Source: Klebsiella pneumoniae
GTDB lineage: Bacteria; Pseudomonadota; Gammaproteobacteria; Burkholderiales; UBA3065
Direction of reading: 5' to 3'
Length of the DNA: 54,865 nucleotides
NCBI GenBank assembly: GCA_945897555.1
Contig: CAMDGF010000001.1
Coordinates: 1 to 54,865, forward strand
Part shown: positions 353 to 18,653 of the stretch, in pieces
Layout of the letters: each line of letters opens with the position of its first letter
Numbering within the stretch: position 1 is the stretch's first letter
The notes under the pieces: model-generated
Seen by the model: the letters and a program-made list of their open reading frames with translations, nothing else
Database searches by the model: none
Told to the model about the DNA's origin: nothing
Position numbers and translations under genes: made by a program

Positions 353-1735
353 TTAACGCGCCTGTACCGCGACGACATTGCGTAACGCCACCAGACGGTT
401 GGCGAAAACATCGGGCTTGTACTTCTCATCGTTGGCGAGCGCCTTGAGCAACTCGCCCATGTTCTTGCGCAGGTCGTCGTTCATGGCCAAGGTGCCGGAC
501 TTGAGAAGGTCGTTGGCCACGTTGGTGATGGCCATATAAGCCTGCTCGGCGCCGGCGTAATCCGAATAACTCGATTCGCGCGACTCGTCGATCAGCGCCA
601 ACAAGACTTGGCGCATCGTAGCCGGCGGGAAGCTCTGCTTTTCCAGGCGAGGCAACATGGCACCAATGGTGGCAGACAGCTCTCGCACCATGTCGACCTC
701 GGTCTTGCCAGCCGGCTTCTTGCCCGTCGACACAGCCAGGTGCATGGCTCGCACCTGCGCGTCAAAAGCTGCCGACGCACCCGGATCGGTGGCGCGCACG
801 ATGGCTCGCAGCATCAGCAAGCTGCTGTCATTCACACGAACCACGCCGGGGCCGGTGCCGAGCCTGGCGTTCCAGCGCTTGTCGCTCATCGGGTGATGGC
901 AAGCATGGCAATCAAACGCGACCAACTCCGGGAACAGTCCATCACGCCGCTTGGGGTCACTCACCACGTCGAGGATCTGCTGAGCCGCGATGGCCTGACC
1001 GATGGCCCAGATGCGCAGCGGGTCATAGTTGCCCTTGCGCTGCACGTAGTCCGCATCGACCTTCCAGTGGGCTGGTTCGAGTGCAGTGAAGGTCTTGATC
1101 TCAAATGAGATGCGCGGATGACCCGCGCCCATGATGCGGTGCGTGACGAAACGCGAGTCATCGCCAAAGTGACAGGACAGGCAAAGCCGCGCTTGAGCCA
1201 CCGGGTTGGCGGTGTCGTAGAGCCCATCGGCCACGTTTTCGGCGTGAGTGCGGCCATCCACCGTGTGCTCGCCGATCCACTTACCCGAGGGGCCATGGCA
1301 GCCTTCGCAACCGACGCCCTCGCTCAGAATGAAGCGCTCGCCACGTGGCCCGCTCGGGTTATGGGCGTGGCAGTCGAGGCAGATCTTGGCCTTGTGCGCG
1401 CCCTCCTCAAGGCCCAGGTTCTTCGCGATGCGCTTGGAGTCGTCGTTCAGGAGCACCCGATAGGCGCTCGTGTGGCGATCCATGCGCACCCAAGTGGTGT
1501 ACTCGTTCTGCAATACGTTGCTGCCATCCCACGGCACGATCGAGCCATGACAGGTGCTGCTGGCGCAGTTCACAGTGCCTTCGGTCTTGTGTGCGGAGAG
1601 GTGGGGCATCAACGCCGTGGAGGGGCCGGCGGCGGTCACGACAGTCGCCAGCGCGATGGCGCCGAACAACACGCCCAATGCCTTGGCCACGGTGCCCCAC
1701 GGGCGACGCATCAGGGAGCGGATCGAGAGTTTCAT
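353..1735 (-). CDS. Pentaheme c-type cytochrome, cytochrome c554-like
   Basis: 460 residues with an N-terminal hydrophobic export segment at about 20-36. Five heme-attachment sites are visible: one CX4CH (CASSTCH, residues 57-63) and four CXXCH (CLDCH, CEGCH, CLSCH, CHACH). The arrangement CLDCHA...EGVGCEGCHG resembles the cytochrome c554 family of periplasmic multiheme electron carriers. All five sites lie in the first two thirds; the C-terminal third has no heme site and looks helical. Its ATG overlaps the stop of the upstream decaheme-LVIVD gene by four bases, so the two are probably translationally coupled. Likely a periplasmic carrier for the larger cytochromes; partner and direction of electron flow are inferred from position only. 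Confidence 0.85.
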   Translation of the reverse strand: MKLSIRSLMRRPWGTVAKALGVLFGAIALATVVTAAGPSTALMPHLSAHKTEGTVNCASSTCHGSIVPWDGSNVLQNEYTTWVRMDRHTSAYRVLLNDDSKRIAKNLGLEEGAHKAKICLDCHAHNPSGPRGERFILSEGVGCEGCHGPSGKWIGEHTVDGRTHAENVADGLYDTANPVAQARLCLSCHFGDDSRFVTHRIMGAGHPRISFEIKTFTALEPAHWKVDADYVQRKGNYDPLRIWAIGQAIAAQQILDVVSDPKRRDGLFPELVAFDCHACHHPMSDKRWNARLGTGPGVVRVNDSSLLMLRAIVRATDPGASAAFDAQVRAMHLAVSTGKKPAGKTEVDMVRELSATIGAMLPRLEKQSFPPATMRQVLLALIDESRESSYSDYAGAEQAYMAITNVANDLLKSGTLAMNDDLRKNMGELLKALANDEKYKPDVFANRLVALRNVVAVQAR

Positions 1736-4700
1736 GGCTTGTCCCGTTTGTTGCTGCCGGTCTGCTTGGCTACGTTCGCCGGCACCTTGCGTGACACGTA
1801 GTCACCCGACTGGCCGCGGTCTGTCACCGTCCAAAGGTCGCCCTTCGGGTTGAGGTACATCTTTTCCATCTCCTTGCGGGAGAAGGGCCGAGCACCGATC
1901 CGCCCAACGATGGCGATCTGCCCTCCGGTCTCATCCACCGCACGGTCCCGGTCGAGGCCCTTGCTCAGTGCGAGTGCCCGCGATGCCGTCTTGCGGGTCG
2001 CGATCAGCTCTGGCTTGGGCTCTGGCGAGAAGCCGTAGAAACCCGGCTGACTCTCAGGCGAGGTGAGCTGCAACACCTTCAGACCGTTGCGGCCGTCGGC
2101 GATGTAGGCGAACAGCGACGCATTGGTGCTACCCACCACCACATCCTGAGCGTCATTGATCTGACCATCCGCGTTGAACATCTGGTAGACCTTCGGCTGG
2201 TCTGCCTTTTCGATGTCAACGATGGCCAGACCTTCGCTGCCGGCCGCCACATAGGCATAGGTCCGAGCCAGATAAACGCGTCGGGCATCCTTGAGCGGCA
2301 CGATGGCCGGGAGCAAGCGCGGTTTCATGTTGGTGATATCGACCACCTGCAGACCCTCGGCCGTCGTCACATAGACGTAGCGGAACTGGACCGCACTCGC
2401 TCGCGCATCCTTGAGCGGGATCGACGCCAGCGACTTGGGCTTGAGCGGGTCGTCAAGATCGATGACCTCAAGCCCCTTGGGCGTGGTGACGTAGGCGTAG
2501 TGGCCCGCCACCACGATGTGACGCGCGCCCTTGAGCAGGCCACCCGGGTTCCACGTCATCTCACGCTTGAGGAAATTGTTGCGTGCCTCGCCGTCGGCCA
2601 AGGTATCGACATTGACAGCGTAGAGACCCTCTTCAGCATCCACCACAAAGGCATAGTGGTAGATGGGGTGGAAGGGCTGCTCCATATTCACTTTGCGCAT
2701 CAGGTCGCCTTGGTTGCGACCCGGGGCGATCGGCTGGTTGGTCGGCAAGGCCACGCAGGTGGCGTTCTTCGAAGCGACATGGGTGTCGTGTCCGAGCGGC
2801 GAATACGGCGCCGCGATGATGCGCTGACTCACACCCTTGTTGCCGTTACCGGCGATGTCGTAGACACGGAATCCGCCCCTACCCTCGGCCACGAACAGAT
2901 ACTCACCCCGCATCTGCAGACATTGCGCAGCGCCGCCCCCGGGCGTGCCCAAATGGTTGTGCGCTTCGCGGTGCGGCGCGTCGACGATCTCCCGGCCCGC
3001 CTTCTGGTGGTCGGCATACCAATCGGGGTAGGCATACTTTTGCAGATACGATCCGATGACCGCTTGCGGCTCATCCCACTCGGTCACGCCCACCGACTCG
3101 ACGTGCTTCTCCGAACCGACCCATGCGTACCGACCGACGAAGTTAACGAAGTTGGTGCCCTGCAACAACAGCTGCGCCATGATCGCGTTGTTGTCGTTGT
3201 CGCGCGAGACGTGGCAATCGCTGCAGGTCTTGGTCTCTTCCTTGCGCTCCGTGTGCGGATAGTGGGGGGCAAAGGCCTGACTCGAGTGTCCGCTCGCGGC
3301 GATCGGCGGCTGCTGGTAGTAGATGCGTTCGCGGTTGCTGTTCTGCGACGACAGCACCAGCGCAGAGCTGGAGCGGAACGGCGCGATGCGGCTGTTCTTG
3401 ACCGGGCCGTGCTTGCCAAGGAAGAACATGTCGTCGCGCGCGACCTGCACGTTGTAGGTCGCGTAGTTGCGCGTCTCGCCGCCTTCAAAGTGGTACCGCT
3501 CGGTCTTCCAATTGGCCTGGATCGGCAGGTGGCAACCCGCACAGCTGGTGGTCCAGCTCAGGTGGCAGGTGAAGCACAGCATGCGGTCATTGTCATGCGC
3601 GAGCTTGTCGACCCCTGGGCCCCACTTGCCCTGACGACCCTCCTCGCCGGCGGCCATCAACTTGGCCCGTGCCGATTTTTCGTTGTACTCGGGATGCTTG
3701 GGATTCACCGAATCCTTCACCAGGGACATCTTCCATTCCTTGGTGGGGTCGAGCGCCGCGCGCTGGTAGAGCACACCATCGATCCACTCAAAGCGCTTGC
3801 GCCCATCCTGGGTCTTGAGCGAGGTCAGGTCGAAGCCGCCCGGACGCGCTGCGGGCCCGCTGGTGTGCAGGGTCGGGTAATTCTTGGCCGTGCCGTGGCA
3901 ATCAGCGCAATCGATCTCCACCGCCGCCGCCACTTCGCCATAGATGTGGCCGTTGCCATGCATGTCCTGGGCAAAGTGGCAGTCGACACAGTGCATGCCG
4001 AGATCCATGTGGATCGAGGCCATGTGCACCGCTTTCTTGAACTTGTCCGGGTCGTCATCGCTGACGATATTGCCCGCCTTGTCCAGCAGATTGCCCTTGC
4101 GGTTGCGCTTGAACACCGCGCGGAACGCCCAGCCGTGGCCGTGGTAGTCGGCGAACTGGGTGTCCTTCATCTCGCCGTTCTTGAGCCAGAGGTCGTTGAG
4201 GAACGCCGGGTCACGCCAGTTGCCGCGGATCACCGCCTCTTCCGGGTTGCGCAAGTTGATCTCGCGGATCTCGGCGTCGGTGGGGTAATGCTGCTTGGCC
4301 GGGAACATGCGCGGCGCATCCGGCTCGTAGTCGTACTGGATGTAGCCGTAGAACGAATTGATATAGATGTTGGGTTGGTGCATGTGGCAATTCATGCACT
4401 GCGCGCTGGGAATGGCCCGCGTGAACTCGTGGCGGATCGGGTGCCCTGACTCGTCCTTGGGGATGGTCGGGTCCTTGGTCTGCGTGCGGCCCATATTGCC
4501 GAACTGTGCGTAGGCACCGCTGTGCTCCGGCTGGCGATCGTTGGCATAGATGACGTGGCAAGCCGTGCAGCCGGAAGAGCGGTAATCGCCCGGGTTGTCG
4601 TTGGTACCCAGGAACCACAGGTGCGGGTCGTTCAGACGCGTCTTGGTGAGGTTGATGACCGGCACCGAGATGCGGTTGCCGGTGCCCGGGCCGCGGTTGC

Positions 4701-5622
4701 TCTGCTTGATGTCCGGCCGGCCAGGCTCGTCGAGACGCTGCAGGATGCCGGTGCTGTTGGGCAGACCGATCTCAGGGAAACTGCTGTTGATGACACGCCC
4801 GCCACGCTCGAAGACGCGGAAGATATCGCCCGGCGGAATGGTCTCCCACGCGGGCAAGGGGTACAGCTTCTCCAGGACACCCTTGAAGACATAAAGGTCT
4901 TCGTCGGGCTTGACCGGGTTGACGATGGCCGCAGCGGTGCCGTCCTGCGCATAAGCCTCACCCAGCATGTAGCGCTTGAACGGCAGGATGCCGTTGTTGT
5001 AGGCCGCGCCCCCCCACAGCATGGAGGACGTGCTCATCAAGCTGCGCTCCTGCGCCTGGATGATGGGCAAATGGCAGGCACCGCAAGCCTCACGCGCCAC
5101 ACGCAGATCACCCGGGTTGATGAACCGCACAAAGGCCGCATGCTCCTTGTTCATGCGAGCGTACGCGCTCTCCGGATTGCGTGAACCCTGCCAGAGGTGC
5201 TCGTCGCGTGGCAGCACGTGGGAGAGCGCCATGGCCCGCTCATAAGCCGGGTGCTTGCGCTCAGCCTCAGGCCCCTTTTCGGCCCGGCGGATGCTGTTAT
5301 CGCCACCGTGGCAATCGGTACAGCCCAGCACCACACCCGGATTGGCGTGCATGGTGTGTTGGTCGGTCTCGGTGTGGCAGGTCATGCAGCCGTCAGACTT
5401 GGCGCGCGCCTCAGCCCAGGTCTGTGCCTTGGGGGCCGCAGGGGCCATCACGTAATTACGCTCGGTCAGCTTCTTCTCCGAAGCGACCGCATTGTCGAAG
5501 GCCAACAGAGCCACCGCCAAGGGCGCGAGCAGCGCCGCCAGAGTGGCGCCACGAGCGAGCCAAGAGCCGCCCACCAGGCGGCGCATCGTTTGAACAGGAC
5601 GGGTGAGAAAGGGCGATCGCAT
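1732..5622 (-). CDS. Decaheme c-type cytochrome with C-terminal LVIVD-repeat beta-propeller
   Basis: 1296 residues. A hydrophobic stretch at about 24-44 is an uncleaved anchor or signal peptide. Ten CXXCH sites are spread from residue 79 to about 800: CMTCH, CTDCH, CGACH, CTACH, CMNCH, CVDCH, CADCH, CFTCH, CAGCH, CSDCH. From about residue 880 on there are no heme sites. Instead, at least six copies of an aromatic-rich repeat follow, such as YAYVTTPKGLEVIDLDDP and YVYVTTAEGLQVVDITN, matching the LVIVD pattern of beta-propeller blades. The cytochrome half probably wires electrons and the propeller half binds a partner or surface. The gene starts seven bases after the barrel gene. I recognise the parts but not a characterised protein with this architecture. 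Confidence 0.88.
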   Translation of the reverse strand: MRSPFLTRPVQTMRRLVGGSWLARGATLAALLAPLAVALLAFDNAVASEKKLTERNYVMAPAAPKAQTWAEARAKSDGCMTCHTETDQHTMHANPGVVLGCTDCHGGDNSIRRAEKGPEAERKHPAYERAMALSHVLPRDEHLWQGSRNPESAYARMNKEHAAFVRFINPGDLRVAREACGACHLPIIQAQERSLMSTSSMLWGGAAYNNGILPFKRYMLGEAYAQDGTAAAIVNPVKPDEDLYVFKGVLEKLYPLPAWETIPPGDIFRVFERGGRVINSSFPEIGLPNSTGILQRLDEPGRPDIKQSNRGPGTGNRISVPVINLTKTRLNDPHLWFLGTNDNPGDYRSSGCTACHVIYANDRQPEHSGAYAQFGNMGRTQTKDPTIPKDESGHPIRHEFTRAIPSAQCMNCHMHQPNIYINSFYGYIQYDYEPDAPRMFPAKQHYPTDAEIREINLRNPEEAVIRGNWRDPAFLNDLWLKNGEMKDTQFADYHGHGWAFRAVFKRNRKGNLLDKAGNIVSDDDPDKFKKAVHMASIHMDLGMHCVDCHFAQDMHGNGHIYGEVAAAVEIDCADCHGTAKNYPTLHTSGPAARPGGFDLTSLKTQDGRKRFEWIDGVLYQRAALDPTKEWKMSLVKDSVNPKHPEYNEKSARAKLMAAGEEGRQGKWGPGVDKLAHDNDRMLCFTCHLSWTTSCAGCHLPIQANWKTERYHFEGGETRNYATYNVQVARDDMFFLGKHGPVKNSRIAPFRSSSALVLSSQNSNRERIYYQQPPIAASGHSSQAFAPHYPHTERKEETKTCSDCHVSRDNDNNAIMAQLLLQGTNFVNFVGRYAWVGSEKHVESVGVTEWDEPQAVIGSYLQKYAYPDWYADHQKAGREIVDAPHREAHNHLGTPGGGAAQCLQMRGEYLFVAEGRGGFRVYDIAGNGNKGVSQRIIAAPYSPLGHDTHVASKNATCVALPTNQPIAPGRNQGDLMRKVNMEQPFHPIYHYAFVVDAEEGLYAVNVDTLADGEARNNFLKREMTWNPGGLLKGARHIVVAGHYAYVTTPKGLEVIDLDDPLKPKSLASIPLKDARASAVQFRYVYVTTAEGLQVVDITNMKPRLLPAIVPLKDARRVYLARTYAYVAAGSEGLAIVDIEKADQPKVYQMFNADGQINDAQDVVVGSTNASLFAYIADGRNGLKVLQLTSPESQPGFYGFSPEPKPELIATRKTASRALALSKGLDRDRAVDETGGQIAIVGRIGARPFSRKEMEKMYLNPKGDLWTVTDRGQSGDYVSRKVPANVAKQTGSNKRDKP

Positions 5623-5629
5623 GTCCGGC

Positions 5630-7750
5630 TCAATAAGTCAGGATGGCATTGACGAAGCCAGAATAGAAAGGCTCTTTGCGGTCGCCGAACAAGTCCTTCA
5701 AGCCCTCGCCCAGCTTCAACATCGAGAACGACGCGTTGATGATGACGTTCTGGTTATAGAACGGCCGCCACTGAGCGCCAACCGCAAAATCAGTGCCGAG
5801 TTCACGCGCGGGGTTGCGCTCGTTACGCAGGGCCCCGAGCACCGCGGTCTCGTCGAACCGTAGATGAGAGACATTGGCGGTGAGTCGCAACTCGGGCTTG
5901 AGGTCGAAATCGGCTCCGACACCGATGAGCCAGAGCCCCGGATTGACAAAATTGGACTGGCCCTGCTCTTTGCTCGATCGCAGAGAGGGCAGCAGGCCAT
6001 TACGTCCGGACAGCGCCACACCACCGCCGCCGATCAGAGGGATGCCTTGGCGAATGAAATAAGCAGTGTCTGCACCGGCGAACTGCGGATTCTCGAAGAT
6101 GGCATCGAAGCCGGTGGCCTTGTCGTCGTAGGGGTCCCGGTCACCGCTGGCATACAGGAAGTTGCCGCGCAGGCGGATCCAGCTGAAGTCGCGGGAGAGT
6201 TCGGTGGCGTGGAAGAAGGCACGGATGTCCTGCTCTCGGCCCGCGATCGGGTTATGACTGTCGCGCCCGACGGCAAGGTAGGTGGAGCTGCTGAGGTTTA
6301 GCCGCGCCTTGGGCATCATGAAGCCAAGATGCCCGTCAAAGGTCGCCCCGAAATAGGTCACGTGGTAGCGATGAGGCTGGCCATCCCCGACCAGCGCGGG
6401 CCTCACAAGAAAGCCGTTGCGGTCGTATTCGTCGCGGGTGTCATCGCTGCGATTGTGCATGACCGTCGCCTGCGAGGTCATTGCAGTGAAGGGAAAGTCT
6501 TGGCGATAGATATTGGCGATGAAGGTGTCGTCGTTACGCCATTTCTGAAAGATGTCATTCAGACCGCTATTGGTGTCTTTCTCGACCCGCCGGAACCACG
6601 CGAGGTTGTACTGGTAGATGTTGTTGTTGCGATTACCGAACAAGCGAACGCCGAATTGGGTGTCCTGAAAGACAAAGCCACGAAAATCGCTGATAAAAGG
6701 CTGGATACCGACACGGATCGAATCGAAGTCATAGCGGTCCGAGACATTGCGCAAGTGATAGTCGACAAACGCTTCTTGGACACCGACGAACGATGTCTCA
6801 CGGTCCATACCAGTCTGCGGGTTGACGCGCAGGATGCCCGCCTCGTCGACGCGGGCATTCACATAGTTGATCACGGGCACAAACCGGAATTCCCAATCTG
6901 GCGGGCGGTACGTGGTGTTGCCCTTGACCAGACCAAAACTCATGATCAGGTTCTGCCCGAACACCCGCTGGTCGTAATTGCCGTAGATATTGTTGATGTC
7001 AGGCCTGAAGGCGATGGTCTGCGACACCGGCAAGGGTGTGGAGCGCAATTCGAGCAGCGAATCAGAGATACCCGTGAAGGTGAAGAACCAGTCTTTACCG
7101 AGCTCCTTGACCGGGATATCGCCCTTGAGAATGTTCTGGTTGTAGGGGTCGTACCAAGGGAACTTGAAGCCGAGCGCCTGCATCAGCCGCCAGCGATCGG
7201 GGATGGGAACCGATTCCCGCGGCAAATTGGCCTGTGGCGGCGGCAACTGGTCGGGATCGATCGGCGGCAGCGTGACCACCTTGGTCGGCTGGCCGCCCGG
7301 ACGGGCTTCGTCGATGGCGGGGACGGACAAGTCGCTCGCACCGATCGCCTCGCGCGCGAAACTGGTTTCGCCAGCGGCGTAGATCAGATCGACACTGAAC
7401 TCGCCATATTCTGCCGGTTCGCGCAGCACCCAAGCAAAGGTCTCCGGCTCGGTCTTGACACGCACCTTGAACCACTCACCCTGCTGCTCCATCACCGTCA
7501 AGAGCTGACCGCGATCGGAGCGCCCGACCGCCAGCGAAGACACGTCAGGCGCCTGGTAGAGGCGCACCTCTGGCGCAACAACCTGCAGCTGCGCAACGAC
7601 CTTTCGAGCCACGTAAGCGGGGTTGTGATCATGCGGGTCAGCAACTGGCGGCTGCTCGGCGGCTAGAGCGCACGGGCCCATGAGGCCAGCCATGGCCAAA
7701 ACGAGCCCCCGGATGGACTGCACAGCGATACCGCTAGAACGCACAGGCAT
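5630..7750 (-). CDS. Outer-membrane beta-barrel protein with N-terminal SH3-like domain
   Basis: 706 residues. A signal peptide ends near ALAAEQ at about residue 31. Residues of about 50-110 look like a bacterial SH3 domain (VRLYQAPDVSSLAVGRSDRG and GEWFKVRV). From about 230 onward the sequence alternates polar and aromatic/hydrophobic residues, with many Tyr, Phe and Arg-Asn turns, and ends in an aromatic residue (FVNAILTY). This is characteristic of a large outer-membrane barrel. It overlaps the end of the preceding GlcG-like gene by 17 bases and sits seven bases before the decaheme-LVIVD gene. Inference: it anchors, or forms the pore for, the neighbouring multiheme cytochromes, as porins do in known porin-cytochrome complexes. 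No sequence similarity to MtrB/MtoB could be tested. Confidence 0.75.
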   Translation of the reverse strand: MPVRSSGIAVQSIRGLVLAMAGLMGPCALAAEQPPVADPHDHNPAYVARKVVAQLQVVAPEVRLYQAPDVSSLAVGRSDRGQLLTVMEQQGEWFKVRVKTEPETFAWVLREPAEYGEFSVDLIYAAGETSFAREAIGASDLSVPAIDEARPGGQPTKVVTLPPIDPDQLPPPQANLPRESVPIPDRWRLMQALGFKFPWYDPYNQNILKGDIPVKELGKDWFFTFTGISDSLLELRSTPLPVSQTIAFRPDINNIYGNYDQRVFGQNLIMSFGLVKGNTTYRPPDWEFRFVPVINYVNARVDEAGILRVNPQTGMDRETSFVGVQEAFVDYHLRNVSDRYDFDSIRVGIQPFISDFRGFVFQDTQFGVRLFGNRNNNIYQYNLAWFRRVEKDTNSGLNDIFQKWRNDDTFIANIYRQDFPFTAMTSQATVMHNRSDDTRDEYDRNGFLVRPALVGDGQPHRYHVTYFGATFDGHLGFMMPKARLNLSSSTYLAVGRDSHNPIAGREQDIRAFFHATELSRDFSWIRLRGNFLYASGDRDPYDDKATGFDAIFENPQFAGADTAYFIRQGIPLIGGGGVALSGRNGLLPSLRSSKEQGQSNFVNPGLWLIGVGADFDLKPELRLTANVSHLRFDETAVLGALRNERNPARELGTDFAVGAQWRPFYNQNVIINASFSMLKLGEGLKDLFGDRKEPFYSGFVNAILTY

Positions 7751-9716
7751 TTTGGACCTGACTGCTCACAAAGGGTGTCTGGGGGCACTGAACATAGCGC
7801 AGACCGATTCGATCGCTGCGAAGGCTCGGAGTCGCGTGACGAACCGACATGCGTAGGGCGAGCGCGGCGCGGTGAAGCCCGAGAGCGGCGATCATGTCGT
7901 CCTGATCCACGCCATCGCCCGATACACCGATGGCGCCTAGCAGCGTTACACCATCTCTGTCGTAGATCGGAACGCCACCGGGGAAGATCTGAATCCCATT
8001 GGCGAACAGTTGGGAACCCGTACCACCGCCTGCCGCGTCGATCGCAACGGCTACCGCGGGCGCAACGCAACTGCTCGGCTTCACGTTGCCGACCAAGGCA
8101 GGAGCGGCCTCAAACACCAGGGCTGCGAGGGTCTGGAACTGCACGAGATCCAGTTGCAGGCCGACATTGAACGGGCTCCAACTGCCGCTTGGATTTGACA
8201 GCGGACCCGGTCCGCGACCATCAATGCCATCGGGGAAATTGGGTCGAGCAATGTTGCCGATGGCTCGGGCGGTGATCGCGCGGCCGGTGAACACATCGCC
8301 ACCAAAGAAGGCACTGCCAGCATCCATCCGCGCCCCGGCTCCGGGAATCACCGGGATGTTGCGGAAAGCCGAATTGAGAACACTATCGCCAGGGTTGGCG
8401 CGAATCAGCTCGCTGGCATCTGGCCGTGAAAAAAGAGCCGCTGTGCGTGCTTTTTGGAGGGATACATCAGTGCCGAAGATCGGCGCGTCGGGTGTACGTG
8501 CCACCCCGAGCACGTTGCCAGCCGCATCGACGATCGAGACAGTCACCTCTGCGGGTGAATTCAGCGGTTTTCGGATCTGAGCGCGCGCCTGGTTGGCGAC
8601 CCCGATCGCCTGCTGCAGTATCTCTGCCACCTCATCGGCCGCAAGCGGCGTGACGGTGGAGGAAACCACAGGAAAGCGGTTTCCACCCGACCCATCCTCC
8701 AAAACATAAGCGCGCCGCGCCACCAAGGCCGCTCCCGCATTGGCCGCATCAGCAGCCACATAGCCCGACCCGGTTTCACCATAAGCCACGCCATCGCGCG
8801 GGGCCTGAGACGTGAACCAGCCCGGCACCTGCAGCAAAGCCGCGGCAACAGGCTGCAACGGGGCGTTCGCAGTGTCAGGTACCGAACCATCCGAAGCCGA
8901 GTAAGGCAGTGTGATACCGCCCGCCGTAATACGGTTGGCTCGGATATCCAGCGGTGCCAAAAAGCCTCTCGACGCACCCAGAGCCACCCGCTCCTCGACA
9001 TCTGCGACGGGCCGCCGGGGATTCAGATCGAGACTGTACGTGGCAGCGGCACCCGCGATGACGCCCACACCGCCCACGACAACCCCGTTCTTGTACAGGG
9101 GGAAACCACCAGGGTCGGCGGACAGGCCCAGCGGCGAACGCCGCGGCCCGATCCCCACACCGGCAGGGGGTTCGGCCGTCTGCACCAGATCGCCGCATGG
9201 CAATTGGCTGAACTGAACCCCGAACAGAGGCCCGCCAGCCGTGAATCTCACCCCGGGAATGAAATGGTTCTGGACGATGAAGCTTGCAGTTCGAGTACTG
9301 AATGCATTGCCCGACGAGGAGAGATAGGCTCCCGTGACGGCCTTGGAGATAGCCGCCAAGGCCGCGAGGTCGAGCGGCACACCCAATTCAGCCGCCGCAC
9401 CCGGCGCCGGGGACAGCGAAGGATCGTTGAATATGCCCTCAAGCCCACCCGACACTGGGAGCCCACTCTGCAGGGTGGTGCGGCTGGCAGCTCCGCGACG
9501 GTAGACGGCAAGGACATTGCCGACGCGATCGACGACGGCGGCAGTGAAACGATCGTTACAGCCCGGCGTACGGCTACAAGCAAGCTCTGCTTGCGCGCCG
9601 ATCAGGGTCACCTCGACGGCAGAAAGCCGCTCCAATGCGGGCGCAGCGTCGGCAAAACTCGCCCACACGGGCAGCAGCGTGGCCAGCAACAAGCGCCACG
9701 ACCAGACAGCACTCAT
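7734..9716 (-). CDS. Exported protein with two GlcG/HbpS-like (DUF336) domains
   Basis: 660 residues from the ATG at 9716, which overlaps the stop of the upstream decaheme gene (ATGA) and is followed by a good signal peptide ending near SFADA. An open frame extends 39 codons further upstream, but that part lies inside the previous gene and lacks signal-peptide character. Two segments show the pattern of the GlcG/HbpS heme-binding family: FTAAVVDRVGNVLAVYRRGA near the start and VTVSIVDAAGNVLGVARTPD near the middle, each followed by Gly-rich PGGFPLYKNGVVVGGVGV-type strands. There is no CXXCH site. A role as a heme- or small-molecule-binding subunit of the cytochrome complex is plausible. Known HbpS-type proteins bind heme or cobalamin, but the operon context is the only direct clue here. 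Confidence 0.78.
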   Translation of the reverse strand: MSAVWSWRLLLATLLPVWASFADAAPALERLSAVEVTLIGAQAELACSRTPGCNDRFTAAVVDRVGNVLAVYRRGAASRTTLQSGLPVSGGLEGIFNDPSLSPAPGAAAELGVPLDLAALAAISKAVTGAYLSSSGNAFSTRTASFIVQNHFIPGVRFTAGGPLFGVQFSQLPCGDLVQTAEPPAGVGIGPRRSPLGLSADPGGFPLYKNGVVVGGVGVIAGAAATYSLDLNPRRPVADVEERVALGASRGFLAPLDIRANRITAGGITLPYSASDGSVPDTANAPLQPVAAALLQVPGWFTSQAPRDGVAYGETGSGYVAADAANAGAALVARRAYVLEDGSGGNRFPVVSSTVTPLAADEVAEILQQAIGVANQARAQIRKPLNSPAEVTVSIVDAAGNVLGVARTPDAPIFGTDVSLQKARTAALFSRPDASELIRANPGDSVLNSAFRNIPVIPGAGARMDAGSAFFGGDVFTGRAITARAIGNIARPNFPDGIDGRGPGPLSNPSGSWSPFNVGLQLDLVQFQTLAALVFEAAPALVGNVKPSSCVAPAVAVAIDAAGGGTGSQLFANGIQIFPGGVPIYDRDGVTLLGAIGVSGDGVDQDDMIAALGLHRAALALRMSVRHATPSLRSDRIGLRYVQCPQTPFVSSQVQNACAF

Positions 9717-11323
9717 CGGCTCGCCACCCTTTGCCCGGCCGCGGCCTTGGTCGCTGTCTTGAGATCCAGCGGCTTCGCCGGAACCGGCTCCGGCTTGGCC
9801 GTCGGCATGTGGAAGCCGTGGCACAGAGAACAATCCGAAACGATCTTGTCAGCCACCGGCTTGGAACCTGCATGGCAATCGCGACACCCATCGATGCCAG
9901 GCATCAACACGTCGCTGGCTTTGCTGGACTTGTCAGCCGCGTGGCAACTCTCGCATTTTGCGCTGGCATGCGACGCGTGGCTAAAGGTGGACTTGGGCAT
10001 CCAGGCGTGATCGGGCGCGATGGGCGCGACGCTCCACTGCGGCAGGTTGCGGCCCGGCGTGCCGACCTTGCCTGGCCCGGCGAGGCGCTTGACCTCGTGG
10101 CAGATGGCGCAAGACGTCTTCTCGAACAGCTCGATGGCCGCATTGCTGGCCCGGCTCATGTTGTTGCCAGGCGTGTTGACGAAGCTGCGCGGCGGCAGAT
10201 CCGGCTCGCCCGGCCGTTTGATGACGATGGTCTTGGTGAGCGGCTCGGGACCGCGTGGCACGCTGCCGACCGAACCGGCGAAGCTGTAGAACTCGGCCAA
10301 GGTGTCGAGCACCTCGGTGACCGAGCCATGCGGCACCTCGCGATTGGAGAGGTTAGGCTCCATCTTCAGCGCGTGGCAGCTCTGGCAATGGTCCTTCATG
10401 TTGACGGTTTGGAAATTGATGCCGTCGGGATCGGGCTGGTGGCAATTGGCGCACTTCATCACGACCTTGCCTTCGGGGCTGCCAACGCCCTGTTTGTCCA
10501 AGTGCACGTCGTGCGGGAACTTGAGGTTGGTCGGCTCCGAGAGCAGCGACTTCTCCGGCAAGCGGACGCGCTTGAGAGAGACACGCATGGCGTCGACCGT
10601 CGGCGCCGCCACCGCCATCTGCACACGGAAGTTCGGGTGGTCGTCGGCAAAATCGCGAACGTTCGCGGTCTCGGTCTTGGCGTAACTCTTCTTGATGTCG
10701 CCGTGGCAGTCGGCGCAGTCACGACCGACCGAGTGCTTATTCTGCTCAGCCAGCGCAAAACTGCCCTGGTGATCGAGGTGACACGTGGCACAGCGGACAT
10801 CGAGCCGCGCGTCGTGCACCGACTTGCGGTCGACGTGATCGGAGATCGCCTTGTGGCAGCTCAGACAATCGGCATCCTTGACCTGCGCGAACGCGCCGCT
10901 GTGGCAGACCCGGCAGTCGTTGGCCCATGGCTGATGCGCCGACGCGACCGGCCCCGGGTTCCACCAGCGGTCGAGCGCCATGATGGTCGGGGCCGCCGCC
11001 CGGTAGTTCGTCATGTCGGCCAACTGGTAGAAGCCAGCGGCCTCGCCCTTGGCGTAATCGGGAGTGGCCCGCGGATCGGGGCGCCGCCCCTCGAACTGCG
11101 AATGGCTCTCGGCTGCGTTCCCGGCGAGCAGCTCACCAATGACCGGCACCCTCGCCACGGCAGCCTCATCGCCGCTGTAGATCGAGGCGAACATCGGCGC
11201 GAGCAGAAAACCGACAAAGCCGACGAGGAAAAGCAGCCATGACATCAGCCGTCGGCCAGCCATGGGGCGCTGCAGCCGGCGGATCTCGGCGGTGATCGGA
11301 TCGTCTGGTGTATGACCGCTCAT
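9713..11323 (-). CDS. Membrane-anchored decaheme c-type cytochrome
   Basis: 536 residues. A single N-terminal transmembrane helix (about 27-49, LMSWLLFLVGFVGFLLAPM) is followed by a periplasmic domain. Ten CXXCH sites run from residue 137 to about 500: CRVCH, CLSCH, CATCH, CADCH, CANCH, CQSCH, CAICH, CESCH, CRDCH, CSLCH. Many additional His residues could act as distal ligands. The design resembles quinol-dehydrogenase-linked cytochromes of the NapC/CymA type in position only; it has far more hemes and I see no family-level match. It starts 16 bases after the cytochrome b gene, so it is the natural electron partner of that membrane protein. An AGAAGG sequence lies before the ATG. Confidence 0.88.
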   Translation of the reverse strand: MSGHTPDDPITAEIRRLQRPMAGRRLMSWLLFLVGFVGFLLAPMFASIYSGDEAAVARVPVIGELLAGNAAESHSQFEGRRPDPRATPDYAKGEAAGFYQLADMTNYRAAAPTIMALDRWWNPGPVASAHQPWANDCRVCHSGAFAQVKDADCLSCHKAISDHVDRKSVHDARLDVRCATCHLDHQGSFALAEQNKHSVGRDCADCHGDIKKSYAKTETANVRDFADDHPNFRVQMAVAAPTVDAMRVSLKRVRLPEKSLLSEPTNLKFPHDVHLDKQGVGSPEGKVVMKCANCHQPDPDGINFQTVNMKDHCQSCHALKMEPNLSNREVPHGSVTEVLDTLAEFYSFAGSVGSVPRGPEPLTKTIVIKRPGEPDLPPRSFVNTPGNNMSRASNAAIELFEKTSCAICHEVKRLAGPGKVGTPGRNLPQWSVAPIAPDHAWMPKSTFSHASHASAKCESCHAADKSSKASDVLMPGIDGCRDCHAGSKPVADKIVSDCSLCHGFHMPTAKPEPVPAKPLDLKTATKAAAGQRVASR

Positions 11324-11339: not shown

Positions 11340-12203
11340 TCAACCGCGGCTGTAGATCAGCCCGGTGCCGTCGAACAACACGTTGCCGTTGTAGTAGAAC
11401 AGCACCGACAGGACGTGCGCCGCGAGCACCGCGAGCAGCCCGATCGAGATCGGCACGTGAATCATCAGCCAGACATCGGTCCAGGCTTTGATGCGCAGGA
11501 AACCCCGCATACGTTGCAATTGCGCCTGACGCCTGACCTGCACCGCGTAGAGGTCGCGGATCGCCTTGTCGCCCTGCAGACCCATGTCGTGCAGGGCCAG
11601 CACGGCCACCTCCGTAGGGCAGCCCCCGGGCCCACCGAAGCGACCAAACAGGCCGTTGACGATGCGCCCATGGGCCGAGGCCTCGACCAGACGCTGGACC
11701 TCATCGCCCAAGCCCTTGGCGAGATTGCGAGACTCGGCGTCGAGTTCCTTGAGCAGGTCGCCATGCTGCTGGAGCGACTTGCCGCCCACGAGACCACTCA
11801 TGAGGGATGGGTTGCGCATGTACACGGTGACGCCCCAGATGCCGCTGAGGATGACCACCACCATGAGCGCGTAGGCGAGCGTGTGGATATTGATGCCGAA
11901 CTGGAAGCCCGTGTGGAGCGTGGCCACCACCAGCAGAGAAAGACCCAGCCAGATGTGCGCCGACAACCACCCCCGAACGGTGCCAAGGTTCGAGCGGTAG
12001 GCGCGCTTGCGCATGCCAAAGAGGATCAACCAGACGATGAGCAGTGCGCCCAGGATGCCGAGCGTGTAGCCGAGCCAAGTGCCGCCGTTGGGAACGGTGC
12101 GCGGTTCATCGATGACATAAGCCACGATGCTGCCGATCGCCAGGATCAGACTCCACTTGAGGTAGCGGAACCCGCCAAGGCTCAGGATGCTTTCCTGCGA
12201 CAT
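11340..12203 (-). CDS. Di-heme cytochrome b-type inner-membrane protein
   Basis: 287 residues with five predicted membrane helices at about 14-31, 42-64, 79-100, 105-129 and 244-270. Helix 3 carries His83 and His97, and helix 5 carries His249 and His263. Each pair is separated by 13 residues, the spacing expected for two b hemes stacked across a membrane. A charged loop of more than 100 residues lies between helices 4 and 5. The pattern suggests a quinol- or quinone-reactive cytochrome b passing electrons to or from the periplasmic hemes encoded next. It is the first gene of the minus-strand run and diverges from ccmI. I do not recognise a named family, and the heme ligation is inferred from spacing only. 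Confidence 0.78.
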   Translation of the reverse strand: MSQESILSLGGFRYLKWSLILAIGSIVAYVIDEPRTVPNGGTWLGYTLGILGALLIVWLILFGMRKRAYRSNLGTVRGWLSAHIWLGLSLLVVATLHTGFQFGINIHTLAYALMVVVILSGIWGVTVYMRNPSLMSGLVGGKSLQQHGDLLKELDAESRNLAKGLGDEVQRLVEASAHGRIVNGLFGRFGGPGGCPTEVAVLALHDMGLQGDKAIRDLYAVQVRRQAQLQRMRGFLRIKAWTDVWLMIHVPISIGLLAVLAAHVLSVLFYYNGNVLFDGTGLIYSRG

Positions 12204-12457
12204 TCAATAACCCGTTCAAGAGATCACTGCTTGCGTGCCCCGGGCCTGCAACTCTGCCGCCCGCGACCACCCCACAAACCACTCGACCGGGCCGAACTTC
12301 CCCGGCTTGGCGCAGACGAAACGCCTTTGGACGACATGTAATGTAACTCAAGGGCTGGACAGATTTTGTTACACGAACAAAAAAATCGCTCGCATGGACA
12401 TCGGCGGTTCGAGTCCCTAGAGTGCAGGCTCCTTGGAACACGAGGCCTTGGTCCCGG
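12204..12457. promoter_or_regulatory. Divergent control region between the cytochrome and ccm operons
   Basis: These 254 bases separate the first genes of the two divergent cytochrome-related operons, so promoters for both must lie here or be absent. The stretch 12337-12385 is AT-rich compared with its surroundings and contains a perfect inverted repeat. I could not find a convincing -35/-10 pair with 16-18 base spacing on either strand. The assignment rests on position. Confidence 0.5.
12364..12382. repeat. Perfect 7-bp inverted repeat, possible operator
   Basis: TTTTGTT at 12364-12370 and AACAAAA at 12376-12382 are exact reverse complements around a five-base spacer, ACACG. It lies about 160 bases before the cytochrome b start and 75 bases before the ccmI start. 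The dyad could bind a dimeric regulator of either operon. A weak hairpin without function is the alternative. Confidence 0.45.
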
Positions 12458-13762
12458 ATGACCATCTTTATTCTATTTGCCGCCCTCGCCACCTTGCTGG
12501 TGGCCGCACTGCTCTGGTTCGCCCAGCGCGCCCGCGAGACCCGCTTGCCCGACGATGCCGAGGCCGGGTGGGCGGTGATGATCGCGCGTCGGCGAGAGAT
12601 CGAGGACGACCCGGCCATCGACCCGGCCTTGCGCGAAGCGTTGATCGCAGAGTGGCAGGAGCAGGCTGCTGCCATGCCGCAGAGCAGCGGCCAGACAAGC
12701 ACGCCGATGACGAGCCGTCGCCACCTGTTGTTGCCACTCGGTGTCGTCGCAGTGGCGGTGGCAGCCTATGCGCTGGTCGGCGACGTGAGTGAGCCGGCCA
12801 TGCGCGTCAACCTGACGAATGTGGGTGCGCCATCGGCACTGGTCCGTGAAACGCCGCCGCGTCCGGGCGAGAACCATCCGGGCGGCCAGGGCAGCATCGA
12901 GGAACGCATCGCGGCGCTCGAGAAGAAACTCGAGGCCGAGCCGGACAACCTCGAAGGCTGGGTCATCCTGGCCCGCTCGCGAGGCCTGCAGCGCGACTAT
13001 CCGGCGGCGGTCCAAGCCCTCGAACAATCGCTGCGGCTGGCGCCCGGCCACCCCGACCTGCTGGCCGACTTGGCCGATGCCGTGGCCATGACACAAGGCG
13101 AGAAGATGGCCGGACGCCCCCTCACGCTGGTGTCCGAAGCGCTCAAGTCGGACCCGAAACACCAGAAGTCGCTGGCGCTCGCCGCCACTGCGGCGATGCA
13201 GGCCAACGACCGCGAGAGCGCCGTCAAACTGTGGCGCAGCCTGCAGAGCCAGTTCCTGCCCGGCGATCCAGACTACCTCCAGATCGGCAACATCCTCGCG
13301 CAGCTCGGCGAGCCCGCGCCCGCTGCCGTGGCGACTCCACCCGCTGCCGCGGGCGCACAAACGCCGGCGGCGACCCCGACCAGCGGCGCGGTGATCCGCG
13401 GCCAGGTGGCGCTGAGCCCGAGCGCCGTCGCGCAGCTGCGCAAGTCGCCACCACCCGCGAGCGCAGTGCTCTACGTGCTCGCCAAGGCGGTCGATGGCCC
13501 ACCCATGCCGCTCGCCGTCCTGCGCCTGCCGCTCAAGGACCTGGCAGAGGGCCGCATCGTGCCCTTCCAACTCGACGACACGCAGGCGATGAGCCCCCAA
13601 CTGACCCTTTCGGGATTCAAACAGGTGAGCGTGGAGGCGCGGGTGTCGATGAGCGGCAATGCCATCCGGCAGCCCGGCGACTGGTCGGTGGTGCGCTCGC
13701 CGGTGGCCGTCGGCACCGAGGGCCTGCCGCTGCAGATCGACCCGGCGGCCGGCAGCCGCTAA
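12458..13762 (+). CDS. ccmI: Cytochrome c maturation protein CcmI (CycH)
   Basis: 434 residues from the ATG at 12458 (MTIFILFAALATLLVAALLW). An in-frame ATG 12 codons upstream is less likely because it would put a polar tail before the first helix. There are two membrane helices, at about 2-20 and 89-108, with a soluble loop between them. A TPR region follows at about 150-270 (DNLEGWVILARSRGLQRDY, LEQSLRLAPGHPDLLADLAD). The C-terminal domain of about 320-434 resembles the CcmI periplasmic domain. CcmI holds apocytochrome c and presents it to the CcmF/H heme ligase. Here it is the first gene of the ccm operon; usually it is last. Confidence 0.9.
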   Translation: MTIFILFAALATLLVAALLWFAQRARETRLPDDAEAGWAVMIARRREIEDDPAIDPALREALIAEWQEQAAAMPQSSGQTSTPMTSRRHLLLPLGVVAVAVAAYALVGDVSEPAMRVNLTNVGAPSALVRETPPRPGENHPGGQGSIEERIAALEKKLEAEPDNLEGWVILARSRGLQRDYPAAVQALEQSLRLAPGHPDLLADLADAVAMTQGEKMAGRPLTLVSEALKSDPKHQKSLALAATAAMQANDRESAVKLWRSLQSQFLPGDPDYLQIGNILAQLGEPAPAAVATPPAAAGAQTPAATPTSGAVIRGQVALSPSAVAQLRKSPPPASAVLYVLAKAVDGPPMPLAVLRLPLKDLAEGRIVPFQLDDTQAMSPQLTLSGFKQVSVEARVSMSGNAIRQPGDWSVVRSPVAVGTEGLPLQIDPAAGSR

Positions 13763-13772
13763 GCCGCCCGAC

Positions 13773-15155
13773 ATGCCCGCATCAACCGGCAGCGCCGATC
13801 GCGCGGCTCCTCTGCGACTGGCGGGTGTGCGCCTGGAGCGCGGCAGTACGACCCTCGCCGAATCGGTCTCGTTCGACATGCCGAACGGACGCTATATCGA
13901 GTTGGCCGGCCCCAACGGCAGCGGCAAGAGCACCTTGCTGCGGACGCTCGCCGGCCTGCAGCCGCGCGTATCCCTGCACTCGCGCTGGCCCGAGCCCGGC
14001 GAGGTTTTCCTGTTCGAGCAGAACCCGGCCCTGCGCGTCGAGCCCACCGCCGCCGCCCACCTCGATTGGGCACTTGAGCCGCTCGGCATCCGCCTGAGCC
14101 CGGCGGAGCGCAGCATCGCCCTGCAGCGCGTCGGGCTGGAACGCTCGGCAGGCAAGCGTGTCGGCCAGCTCTCCGAAGGCCAGAGAAGGCGCCTCGTGCT
14201 TGCCTTGATGAGCGCCAGCCAGCGGCGGGTCTGGCTGGTCGATGAGCCGATCAACGCGCTCGACGCCAGCGGCATCCAGCTCTTCCTCGAGCTGCTGCGA
14301 GAGCACCTCGCGAGCGGTGGCATCGCCGTCATCGCCACACACCGCCCCCTCACCGAGCTGGCACCAGACCTTGAGCCGCTCTGTCAGGCACAGGTCCGCC
14401 TGAGCGGGCGAGCGGCCTCAGTGACGCAGCGCGAGCCCGAAGGCGCCGGAGCGCCGCTGCAGACCGGCGCATTCCGCCACTCGGTCTGCGCGCACCCGCT
14501 CGCTTGGGCGTTGCGACGCGAGATCGCGCTGGCCATGGCTTCGCCGCGCGAACTGGTGTGGCCAGGGGTGTTCCACTGGATGATCCTCAGCCTGATCCCC
14601 TTTGGCGTGGGCACCGACCCGCAGCAGCTTGCGCGCATCGCCCCCGGCATGATCTGGGTCAGCGCCCTGCTGGTGACCCTGCTTTCGTCCAGCCGCCACC
14701 TCGAAGCCGACTTCCGCAGCGGCATCTTGTCGCAGCTTGCGGCGGGCGGCTTTCCGCTCGGCAGCCTGGTGGCCGGCAAGGCCCTTGCGCACTGGCTCTT
14801 GTTCGGGCTGCCCATGGCGCTCTACAGCATCCCGCTCGCGCTCGTCTACAACCTCGACGCCACCGGCATCGGAGCACTCGCGTTGTCGCTGGCAGCAGGC
14901 ACGCTGGCGCTGGGGGCGCTCACCCTCCTGTTCGGAGCACTTGGCCTGATGGCGCGGCAAGCGCAGGTGCTGGTGAGCCTGATGAGCTTCCCGGTGTTCG
15001 TGCCGGTGCTGGTGTTCGGCGTCACCACCGTCTCCGCGGCACAGGCTGGGCAAGCGCTCGACGGTCCGTTGCTCACGCTGGCTGGCGTCAGCGTGCTCGC
15101 GCTGCTGCTGGTGCCCGTGGCAGCGCGACGCGTGCTCGACCTCGCCATCGAATGA
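13773..15155 (+). CDS. ccmA-ccmB: Fused heme-exporter ABC protein CcmA-CcmB
   Basis: 460 residues in one uninterrupted frame, starting 10 bases after ccmI. Residues 1-212 are a CcmA ATPase: Walker A GPNGSGKST (46-54), signature LSEGQ (133-137), Walker B VWLVDEP (153-159) and the switch His190. After a linker of about 30 residues, residues 244-460 are CcmB, beginning WALRREIALAMASPRELVWP and carrying about six membrane helices with RIAPGMIWVSALLVTLLSS and GKALAHWLLFGLP. CcmA (about 200 residues) and CcmB (about 220) are normally separate overlapping genes, so the length equals both together. I saw no ATG or ribosome-binding site at the junction. With CcmC and CcmD this complex releases holo-CcmE. 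Confidence 0.88.
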   Translation: MPASTGSADRAAPLRLAGVRLERGSTTLAESVSFDMPNGRYIELAGPNGSGKSTLLRTLAGLQPRVSLHSRWPEPGEVFLFEQNPALRVEPTAAAHLDWALEPLGIRLSPAERSIALQRVGLERSAGKRVGQLSEGQRRRLVLALMSASQRRVWLVDEPINALDASGIQLFLELLREHLASGGIAVIATHRPLTELAPDLEPLCQAQVRLSGRAASVTQREPEGAGAPLQTGAFRHSVCAHPLAWALRREIALAMASPRELVWPGVFHWMILSLIPFGVGTDPQQLARIAPGMIWVSALLVTLLSSSRHLEADFRSGILSQLAAGGFPLGSLVAGKALAHWLLFGLPMALYSIPLALVYNLDATGIGALALSLAAGTLALGALTLLFGALGLMARQAQVLVSLMSFPVFVPVLVFGVTTVSAAQAGQALDGPLLTLAGVSVLALLLVPVAARRVLDLAIE

Positions 15156-15166
15156 TCGCAGTGGCT

Positions 15167-15189
15167 GCCGGCTTGCCGCCCAAGCCGGC
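15167..15189 (+). promoter_or_regulatory. Hairpin followed by a -10-like hexamer before ccmC
   Basis: GCCGGCTTG (15167-15175) and CAAGCCGGC (15181-15189) form a perfect nine-pair stem with a five-base loop, just after the ccmAB stop. TAGAAT follows directly at 15190-15195. There is no T-run, so this is not a normal terminator. It may tune message stability, or mark an internal promoter for ccmC onward. Confidence 0.35.
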
Positions 15190-15201
15190 TAGAATGTGAC
15201 C

Positions 15202-15963
15202 ATGTTGACGTTCCTCAAGCAGCTCGGGTCGCCGCCACGGTTCTTTGCGGTGAGCGGCCCGCTGGTGCGCTGGCTCGCGCTTTCCGCCCTCCTGCTCGGC
15301 CTGCCCGGCATCTGGCTGGCGCTCGTCGGCACTCCCACCGACGCGCAGCAGGGCGAGGTCTACCGGATCATCTACCTGCATGTTCCAGCGGCCTGGATGT
15401 CGATGCTGCTCTACACGGTCGCCACCGGCTACGCGCTGCTCTACTGGATCTGGCGCAGCCCGGTTTCGGCGGTGATGATGCGCGCACTCCTGCCAACGGG
15501 CGCCTGGATGACGCTGCTCGCACTGATCACCGGCTCGCTCTGGGGCAAACCGACCTGGGGTACCTACTGGGTTTGGGACGCTCGCCTCACCTCGGAACTC
15601 ATGCTGCTCTTCATCTATTTCGGCCTGATGGCGCTCTCCAACCTGGTCGAGGACGAGACCAAGACCGATCGGGCACTCGCGCTGTTCACAGTGATCGGCA
15701 TGGTCAACATCCCTCTCATCTACTTCTCGGTGGTGTTCTGGAACACCTTGCATCAGGGCATGTCCATCGGCGCCCCGGGGGCCGCACGGATGGCCCCTGA
15801 GATGAAGGCCGCCCTGCTCATCTGCACATTCGCCCTGTGGTTCGCCTGCGCCGCCATCGTTCTCGTTCGCGGCCGCTGGCTGCTGGTGATGCGGGAGGCG
15901 CGTTCGCGCTGGGTGCGCGACATCCCGGAACTTGCAGCCGGTCCAGGCGCTCCACAGGTATGA
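15202..15963 (+). CDS. ccmC: Heme exporter/heme handling protein CcmC
   Basis: 253 residues, six membrane helices. The tryptophan-rich WWD segment is at about 116-131 (KPTWGTYWVWDARLTS) and the two conserved heme-ligating histidines fall at His60 and His184, the same numbers as in the E. coli protein. CcmC binds heme in the WWD domain and loads it onto CcmE. I used the ATG at 15202; a GTG two codons upstream (15196) is equally open. Neither has a strong Shine-Dalgarno sequence. The gene is separated from ccmAB by 46 bases containing a hairpin. Confidence 0.95.
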   Translation: MLTFLKQLGSPPRFFAVSGPLVRWLALSALLLGLPGIWLALVGTPTDAQQGEVYRIIYLHVPAAWMSMLLYTVATGYALLYWIWRSPVSAVMMRALLPTGAWMTLLALITGSLWGKPTWGTYWVWDARLTSELMLLFIYFGLMALSNLVEDETKTDRALALFTVIGMVNIPLIYFSVVFWNTLHQGMSIGAPGAARMAPEMKAALLICTFALWFACAAIVLVRGRWLLVMREARSRWVRDIPELAAGPGAPQV

Positions 15964-15991
15964 CGCCGCCACCCTCCGGAGTGCTTTCAAC

Positions 15992-16123
15992 ATGACCGCT
16001 GCCGACGCCATCCTGCTCAGTTACCTGCTGGGCGCTGCTGCGCTCGGATTCGACGCCTGGCGCGCACGTGCGGCGCGCGCGTCCGCTCGCGCCCGCTTTA
16101 CGGAGGCGGCTGACAACCCATGA
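15992..16123 (+). CDS. ccmD: Heme exporter accessory protein CcmD
   Basis: A 43-residue protein that starts at an ATG preceded by GGAG ten bases earlier and overlaps ccmE by four bases (ATGA). It has one membrane helix (AILLSYLLGAAALGFDAWRA) followed by a basic, Arg- and Ala-rich tail. Size, topology and location between ccmC and ccmE fit CcmD, the small protein that helps release holo-CcmE from CcmABC. Sequence conservation in this family is low, so the call relies mainly on context. Confidence 0.85.
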   Translation: MTAADAILLSYLLGAAALGFDAWRARAARASARARFTEAADNP

Positions 16124-16530
16124 TGAGATCCCCCGTCCGTCGCCGTCGGCTGCTTTGGATCGCTGCCATTTCGCTCGCCGTGAGCGGCACCGCCTACGGC
16201 GTGATCCGCGCCTTCAACGACAACATGGTGTTCTTCTACACGCCGACCCAACTGCTCGCCGGCGAGGCGCCTGCAGAGCGGTCGCTGCGCATCGGTGGCA
16301 TGGTCGAGGCCGGCAGCATCGAGCGCGAACCCGGTACCCTCGAGATCCGTTTCCGCATCACCGACGAGGCGAAGTCGATCCCGGTGACCTATACCGGAGT
16401 GGTGCCTGACCTGTTCCGCGAGGGCAAGGGTGCAGTGGCACAGGGCGAGATGCGCGACGGTGTCTTTGTCGCCAGCGAGATCCTCGCCAAGCACGACGAG
16501 AACTACATGCCACCCAAACTCAAGAACTGA
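16120..16530 (+). CDS. ccmE: Cytochrome c-type biogenesis heme chaperone CcmE
   Basis: 136 residues. One N-terminal membrane helix (about 11-28) is followed by a small beta-barrel domain. The family's heme-binding signature is present near the C terminus as AKHDENYMPP, with His125 as the covalent heme ligand and Tyr129 as the axial ligand. This is the usual HxxxY form. CcmE receives heme from CcmC in the periplasm and hands it to CcmF. The ATG overlaps the ccmD stop. The short C-terminal tail after the motif is typical of the family. Confidence 0.96.
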   Translation: MMRSPVRRRRLLWIAAISLAVSGTAYGVIRAFNDNMVFFYTPTQLLAGEAPAERSLRIGGMVEAGSIEREPGTLEIRFRITDEAKSIPVTYTGVVPDLFREGKGAVAQGEMRDGVFVASEILAKHDENYMPPKLKN

Positions 16531-16605
16531 GACACGTCACGCTTTTGCCCGTGCCGACGTGCATCGTCCACCGCCTGCCCTAGAGACCACCGGAAAACCC
16601 ACACC

Positions 16606-18651: not shown

Positions 18652-18653
18652 CC

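Follow-up and report, generated by a model that had tools for sequence, protein, structure and literature searches.

Six genes of the minus strand are arranged head to tail at one end of the window, by which we mean the whole stretch of 54,865 nucleotides analysed here, and their stop and start codons either overlap or are separated by gaps of at most 16 bases. Their order in this operon is cytochrome b, anchored decaheme cytochrome, HbpS-like protein, SH3 domain plus barrel, a cytochrome-propeller fusion and a pentaheme c554-like cytochrome. The first gene (11340-12203) encodes a membrane cytochrome b of 287 amino acids with weak similarity to ferric reductases, and the second (9713-11323) a periplasmic decaheme cytochrome of 536 amino acids, anchored in the membrane by a transmembrane segment near residue 25. 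This decaheme protein keeps the same number of hemes in 52 of 54 relatives, and its score against the MtrA/DmsE family (30.3 bits) is below the cut-off of 192.2. In most relatives an FHA-like cytosolic domain precedes the anchor (for example L108:16805-18742 and L088:20856-22655), recognized by Pfam in two of them and in the others from a motif and the length of the N-terminus; the window's protein lacks the domain, as do a few relatives that are about equally short. The third gene (7734-9716) encodes a secreted HbpS-like protein of the haem-degrading family (660 amino acids), likely starting at an ATG at position 9716 that overlaps the preceding stop codon. A lipobox-like motif is found in 32 of 55 HbpS-like relatives, many of which are likely lipoproteins, a feature that is uninformative on the side of the membrane. 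The fourth gene (5630-7750, 706 amino acids) combines an SH3-like domain with an AlgE-like outer-membrane beta-barrel, modeled with 18 strands and with AlgE as its best match (Z 27.9, rmsd 3.0, 363 aligned); by predicted structure it is also AlgE/OprD-like.

The fusion gene (1732-5622) overlaps by four bases the gene for the c554-like protein (353-1735), which carries four CXXCH motifs and one CX4CH motif. Beyond it, at positions 1-217 of the same strand, there is the N-terminal fragment of a seventh gene, truncated at the contig end, encoding a protein with NAD(P)H-flavin, cyclic-nucleotide-binding and 4Fe-4S parts (hereafter CNB-FeS). In this genome the gene is split, with residues 1-71 encoded at C1:5-217 and the remainder at C36:8972-11038. 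In relatives the protein joins a flavin domain resembling YpdA/thioredoxin reductase to a pair of cNMP domains and a multi-[4Fe-4S] tail that is HycB/NrfC-like, and both the nucleotide-binding glycine motifs and the tail cysteines are conserved. This domain mix (L088:23554-26031 and relatives) is unusual and possibly provides a ligand-gated entry of electrons.

Divergently oriented on the plus strand are cytochrome c maturation genes (12446-19699), three of which were tested and encode CcmF (16606-18651), a CcmG-like protein (18654-19187) and CcmH (19187-19699), while 12446-16500 presumably holds further ccm genes. Minus-strand reading frames at 12106-15053 were considered as upstream genes and rejected as shadow frames, since Pfam recognizes nothing in them and they lie over the divergent genes, with which the ccm cluster seems to begin. 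In some alphaproteobacteria the cluster is adjoined by two-partner secretion genes of the ShlB/FhaB type (L088:1503-9656, and near the cluster in L078 and L080), a possible alternative export route.

The fusion gene is open throughout and encodes 1296 amino acids, beginning with a putative Sec-type signal peptide (residues about 1-47, positions 5482-5622), read from the sequence with the boundary between DNAVA and SEKK, in which inspection of the window's copy revealed no lipobox. A ten-heme region follows (residues 70-830, positions 3133-5415), defined by CXXCH motifs and by homology of the ExtM type. The motifs are located at residues 79, 101, 180, 352, 409, 545, 572, 683, 694 and 800, and none was found past residue 804 when the whole protein was scanned, as the preliminary description of this DNA had stated in placing ten sites in the first 800 residues and none later. 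About 0.01 such motifs would be expected by chance from the 22 cysteines and 48 histidines of the protein. All ten sites are invariant in an alignment of 64 homologs, as are twelve histidines outside the motifs. These histidines could be enough to provide distal ligands for bis-His coordination of all ten hemes; the pattern would suit an all-bis-His wire and an enzyme equally and does not single out an open catalytic heme, and no heme without a candidate distal histidine was identified from conservation across the 64 sequences.

In the heme region the Pfam scan returned cytochrome families only as weak, sub-threshold matches. The ExtM model (NF040943) matched in three stretches (E 5.8e-18, 64.5 bits, the equivalog cut-off being 800). 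ExtM is the 12-heme protein of the Geobacter extHIJKLMNOPQS cluster (PMC5877670), and the ten invariant motifs of the fusion fall short of that number. Propeller-less proteins with 10 to 12 hemes from other Proteobacteria score 169-238 bits against the same model. When the fusion family (residues 69-807) was aligned by hhalign with these ExtM-like 10- to 12-heme proteins, the probability was 100 and the E-value 9e-40, and the profile alignment therefore indicates that the fusion is an ExtM-type cytochrome to which a propeller has been added. Propeller-less ExtM-like proteins are encoded at L103:4044-6425, L104:5539-7827, L105:4209-6560 and L106:4177-6741, and the few kilobases inspected around them contained no further multiheme gene.

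The C-terminal third of the fusion, comprising a linker and the repeats (residues about 832-1246, positions 1885-3129), models as a seven-bladed beta-propeller. Pfam LVIVD (PF08309) matches it with an E-value of 1.5e-16 and 59.9 bits, above the gathering cut-off of 20.2, and matched in all 27 sampled homologs. By eye there are six clear repeats and a degenerate seventh at about residues 1212-1246. An AlphaFold model of residues 48-1245, built with a 64-sequence alignment, has a pTM of 0.81 and a pLDDT of 74.7, the propeller being mostly at 90-97. The top structural matches to residues 830-1224 are 7bid, a designed seven-bladed propeller (Z 21.5, rmsd 2.2, 268 aligned), and 1l0q, an archaeal surface-layer YVTN propeller (Z 21.2, rmsd 2.2, 275 aligned). 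An LVIVD propeller of six or more repeats, as previously suggested, is thus confirmed at seven predicted blades, the seventh divergent, and the model did not show the region as anything other than a propeller. Of the 64 sequences, 63 have both Cys901 and Cys956, and the exception, the homolog L077, has neither; because the two are nearly invariant and are lost together, they likely form a disulfide, as in an oxidising compartment. The choice-of-anchor B model (TIGR04312) scored 21.7 bits, the curated cut-off being 100, and a search of PDB chains with the family profile at E 0.1 found no solved structure matching the fusion by sequence. Mirror-tree analysis singled out no propeller partner, the correlations tracking shared descent.

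A scan of contigs representing one genome per species revealed at least 586 genome stretches encoding a relative of the fusion, so that the two-part architecture is common and no exception. We retained 80 loci, in which the alignment is nearly full-length with 57-89% identity in the best segment, and which by record title belong to Alpha-, Beta- and Gammaproteobacteria, a few titles being clearly wrong (e.g. Klebsiella, Marinimicrobia). Among 398 Pseudomonadota genomes drawn evenly, 11 have a full-length member, roughly 3% of the sampled species. Given that Sphingobium plasmids bear the gene and that one of four other genomes of the window's genus is without it, the distribution is patchy and at least sometimes plasmid-borne. 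In annotated records, those of the Sphingobium plasmids included, the protein is called hypothetical or a multiheme (c-type) cytochrome.

The genes surrounding the fusion are largely maintained with it. Among the retained loci, the barrel gene was present in all 66 with enough upstream sequence and the HbpS gene in 55 of 58 testable ones. The other cluster genes were counted in 32 loci with 9 kb on both sides, where we found the decaheme gene in 30, cytochrome b in 29, CNB-FeS in 29 and c554 in 21. Since no c554-like gene is nearby in the other 11, the pentaheme protein may not be an obligatory relay. Of all the proteins of the module, the fusion varies least: at the 25 loci where every component is present, mean pairwise identity is 68% in its heme part and 65% in its propeller, compared with 53% for the barrel, 52% for HbpS, 50% for CNB-FeS, 42% for cytochrome b, 40% for c554 and 32% for the decaheme protein.

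From these observations of gene content, conservation, heme motifs, predicted folds and ExtM homology, we tentatively favour the view that seven conserved genes encode a trans-envelope redox module fed with electrons from NAD(P)H, in which the fusion serves as the terminal subunit for electron exchange. The tight spacing of the operon and the co-occurrence of its genes in relatives point to such a module, as do the domains of the CNB-FeS protein, the constant heme number of the decaheme protein, the homology to ExtM and the adjacent ccm genes, together with the position of the fusion as the most conserved subunit and its twelve invariant histidines. We infer in what order and direction the electrons move, on which side of the membrane the protein lies and what roles the propeller, barrel and HbpS-like protein play, and likewise that the acceptor would be a specific compound rather than bulk mineral. 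The cytosolic flavin/4Fe-4S protein, with its two cyclic-nucleotide-binding domains, would take electrons from NAD(P)H, and these would cross the inner membrane via cytochrome b and the anchored decaheme cytochrome and then enter, possibly by way of the c554-like pentaheme, the ten-heme chain of the fusion at the outer membrane. The propeller would hold a specific partner or substrate beside the end of this chain, and the barrel and the HbpS-like protein could give a small acceptor access to the complex or anchor it. A bolder reading, which we hold with somewhat more doubt, is that the chain is not only NAD(P)H-fed but gated by cyclic nucleotides and FHA, ending in the ExtM-type decaheme with the fused propeller as substrate or partner site; it would then represent an undescribed class of trans-envelope oxidoreductase spread across aerobic Proteobacteria, including a probable phototroph.

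The same genes could also be arranged as an Mtr/Pcc-like surface conduit, with barrel and pentaheme crossing the outer membrane and the decaheme-propeller protein located outside, where its redox partners would be minerals, electrodes, humics or partner cells. Porin and multiheme genes are adjacent in every testable locus, so that the broad definition of a porin-cytochrome system, a barrel gene beside multiheme genes, applies in 66 of 66 loci; the record of one relative, L039, is labelled as a biocathode community, and the type II secretion pseudopilin GspG is encoded in the window's genome and in most carriers tested. Nevertheless, GspG is absent from four complete cluster-bearing genomes (G145, G183, G312 and G402) and, type II secretion being a known export route of surface cytochromes, such export of the fusion cannot, judging from these genomes, be a general property. 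The MtrB barrel has 26-28 strands, and by standard barrel geometry the 18 strands predicted here would be too narrow to enclose a multiheme cytochrome in the same manner; nor did the barrel match MtrB/PioB in Pfam at E 0.1. In Geobacter and Shewanella, mutation rates are highest in outer-surface cytochromes and lowest in inner-membrane ones (PMC12977616), an order opposite to the one found here, which argues for a fixed partner or substrate over loose mineral contact. The preliminary description had envisaged an electron donor placed directly at a binding surface for a mineral, partner protein or polymer. The architecture behind this idea stands and docking by the propeller is plausible, but an external mineral or polymer surface, or a mineral-binding wire, is not supported in view of the high conservation of the fusion, its signal peptide without a lipobox in the window's copy, the genomes lacking GspG and the narrow barrel, and we regard a surface conduit as unlikely.

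With about the same low probability, the fusion could be an enzyme of the periplasm that reduces or oxidises a soluble compound entering through the AlgE-like barrel, as was proposed for ExtI with selenite and tellurite. The propeller would then have a structural role or form part of the active site, as it does in other heme-propeller enzymes. The homology to ExtM, a narrow barrel resembling a solute channel, the absence of GspG from the four complete genomes and an enzyme-like conservation pattern are all consistent with this possibility, and hydrazine synthase likewise pairs propellers with heme subunits, some of its homologs having c554 domains (PMC12758564); a candidate distal histidine for each heme speaks against it. 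The enzyme and the surface conduit differ from the NAD(P)H-fed module mainly in where the protein sits and what it acts on, two points that sequence does not decide.

The direction of flow in that module could also be inward, with an external donor reducing the decaheme-propeller protein and electrons reaching NAD(P)+ or the photosynthetic or respiratory chain. The window's genome (1.8 Mb, Burkholderiales) carries pufL/pufM-type reaction-centre genes outside the window (G000 contig C1:249713-251383). It also encodes one heme-copper oxidase and no RuBisCO was found in it, and therefore the organism is probably an aerobic anoxygenic phototroph living as a photoheterotroph, for which extra electrons would be usable in the light. 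Reaction-centre genes were found in 4 of 11 carriers and in 27 of 387 other genomes, a weak link (p 0.03 when the window's genome is left out, with no correction for kinship) that leaves seven of the carriers without a reaction centre. Moreover, driving electrons up to NAD(P)H along the chain would cost energy, and we see no site of coupling, so that we consider inward uptake very improbable.

The genera that carry a full-length fusion, such as Limnobacter, Silanimonas, Haliea, Phenylobacterium and Sphingobium, have mostly been studied as aerobic heterotrophs, in which envelope-spanning electron export is rarely considered. If the proposed module is real, it would give them a testable and possibly signal-gated means of discarding or acquiring electrons at the outer membrane, and cultured carriers exist, among them Silanimonas lenta, Limnobacter alexandrii and Sphingobium herbicidovorans.

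Heme-propeller combinations and porin-cytochrome clusters are already known. In the open-access literature we found no description of the fusion, common as it is, or of the seven-gene set, which does not prove their absence from print, and no published assay of any member of the family. Searches of the same literature for multiheme cytochromes with LVIVD, porin-cytochrome systems in Haliea or multiheme proteins in Sphingobium, for cyclic nucleotide-binding proteins linked to multiheme proteins, porins and extracellular electron transfer, and for multiheme proteins and extracellular electrons in aerobic anoxygenic bacteria also retrieved no papers, while work on LVIVD together with cytochromes in general came down to two unrelated papers.

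Several known systems resemble parts of the cluster. The LVIVD/YVTN surface propellers (PF08309; 1l0q) share its seven blades and LVIVD score above the gathering cut-off, whereas they carry PKD or anchor domains in place of a ten-heme cytochrome. Hydrazine synthase and other heme-propeller enzymes likewise join a propeller to c-type hemes, with c554 domains in some homologs (PMC12758564), but their heme number and gene context differ; the family profile retrieved no hydrazine synthase subunit or any other PDB chain at E 0.1, and the fold search lists many propellers. Like MtrCAB and other porin-cytochrome complexes, the cluster encodes an outer-membrane barrel beside multiheme cytochromes, although this barrel is AlgE-like with 18 strands and without an MtrB/PioB match, no decaheme scores above the MtrA-family cut-off, and a propeller and a cytosolic NAD(P)H-type protein are added. 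The ext cluster, a porin plus cytochromes tied to selenite and tellurite reduction, for which the porin ExtI is required (PMC5877670), shares the homologous heme region and likewise combines several multiheme cytochromes with an outer-membrane barrel and a membrane-bound cytochrome b. However, ExtM, with its 12 hemes and a mass of 68 kDa, leaves no space for a propeller, and a Rieske protein, a rhodanese and a selenoprotein belong to the ext cluster, for which neither a CNB-flavin-FeS protein nor an HbpS-like gene is described. Finally, the domains of the seventh gene are those of DmsB/NrfC/HycB-type Fe-S proteins and YpdA-type flavin reductases, to which it adds tandem cyclic-nucleotide-binding domains and the company of a multiheme outer-membrane module.
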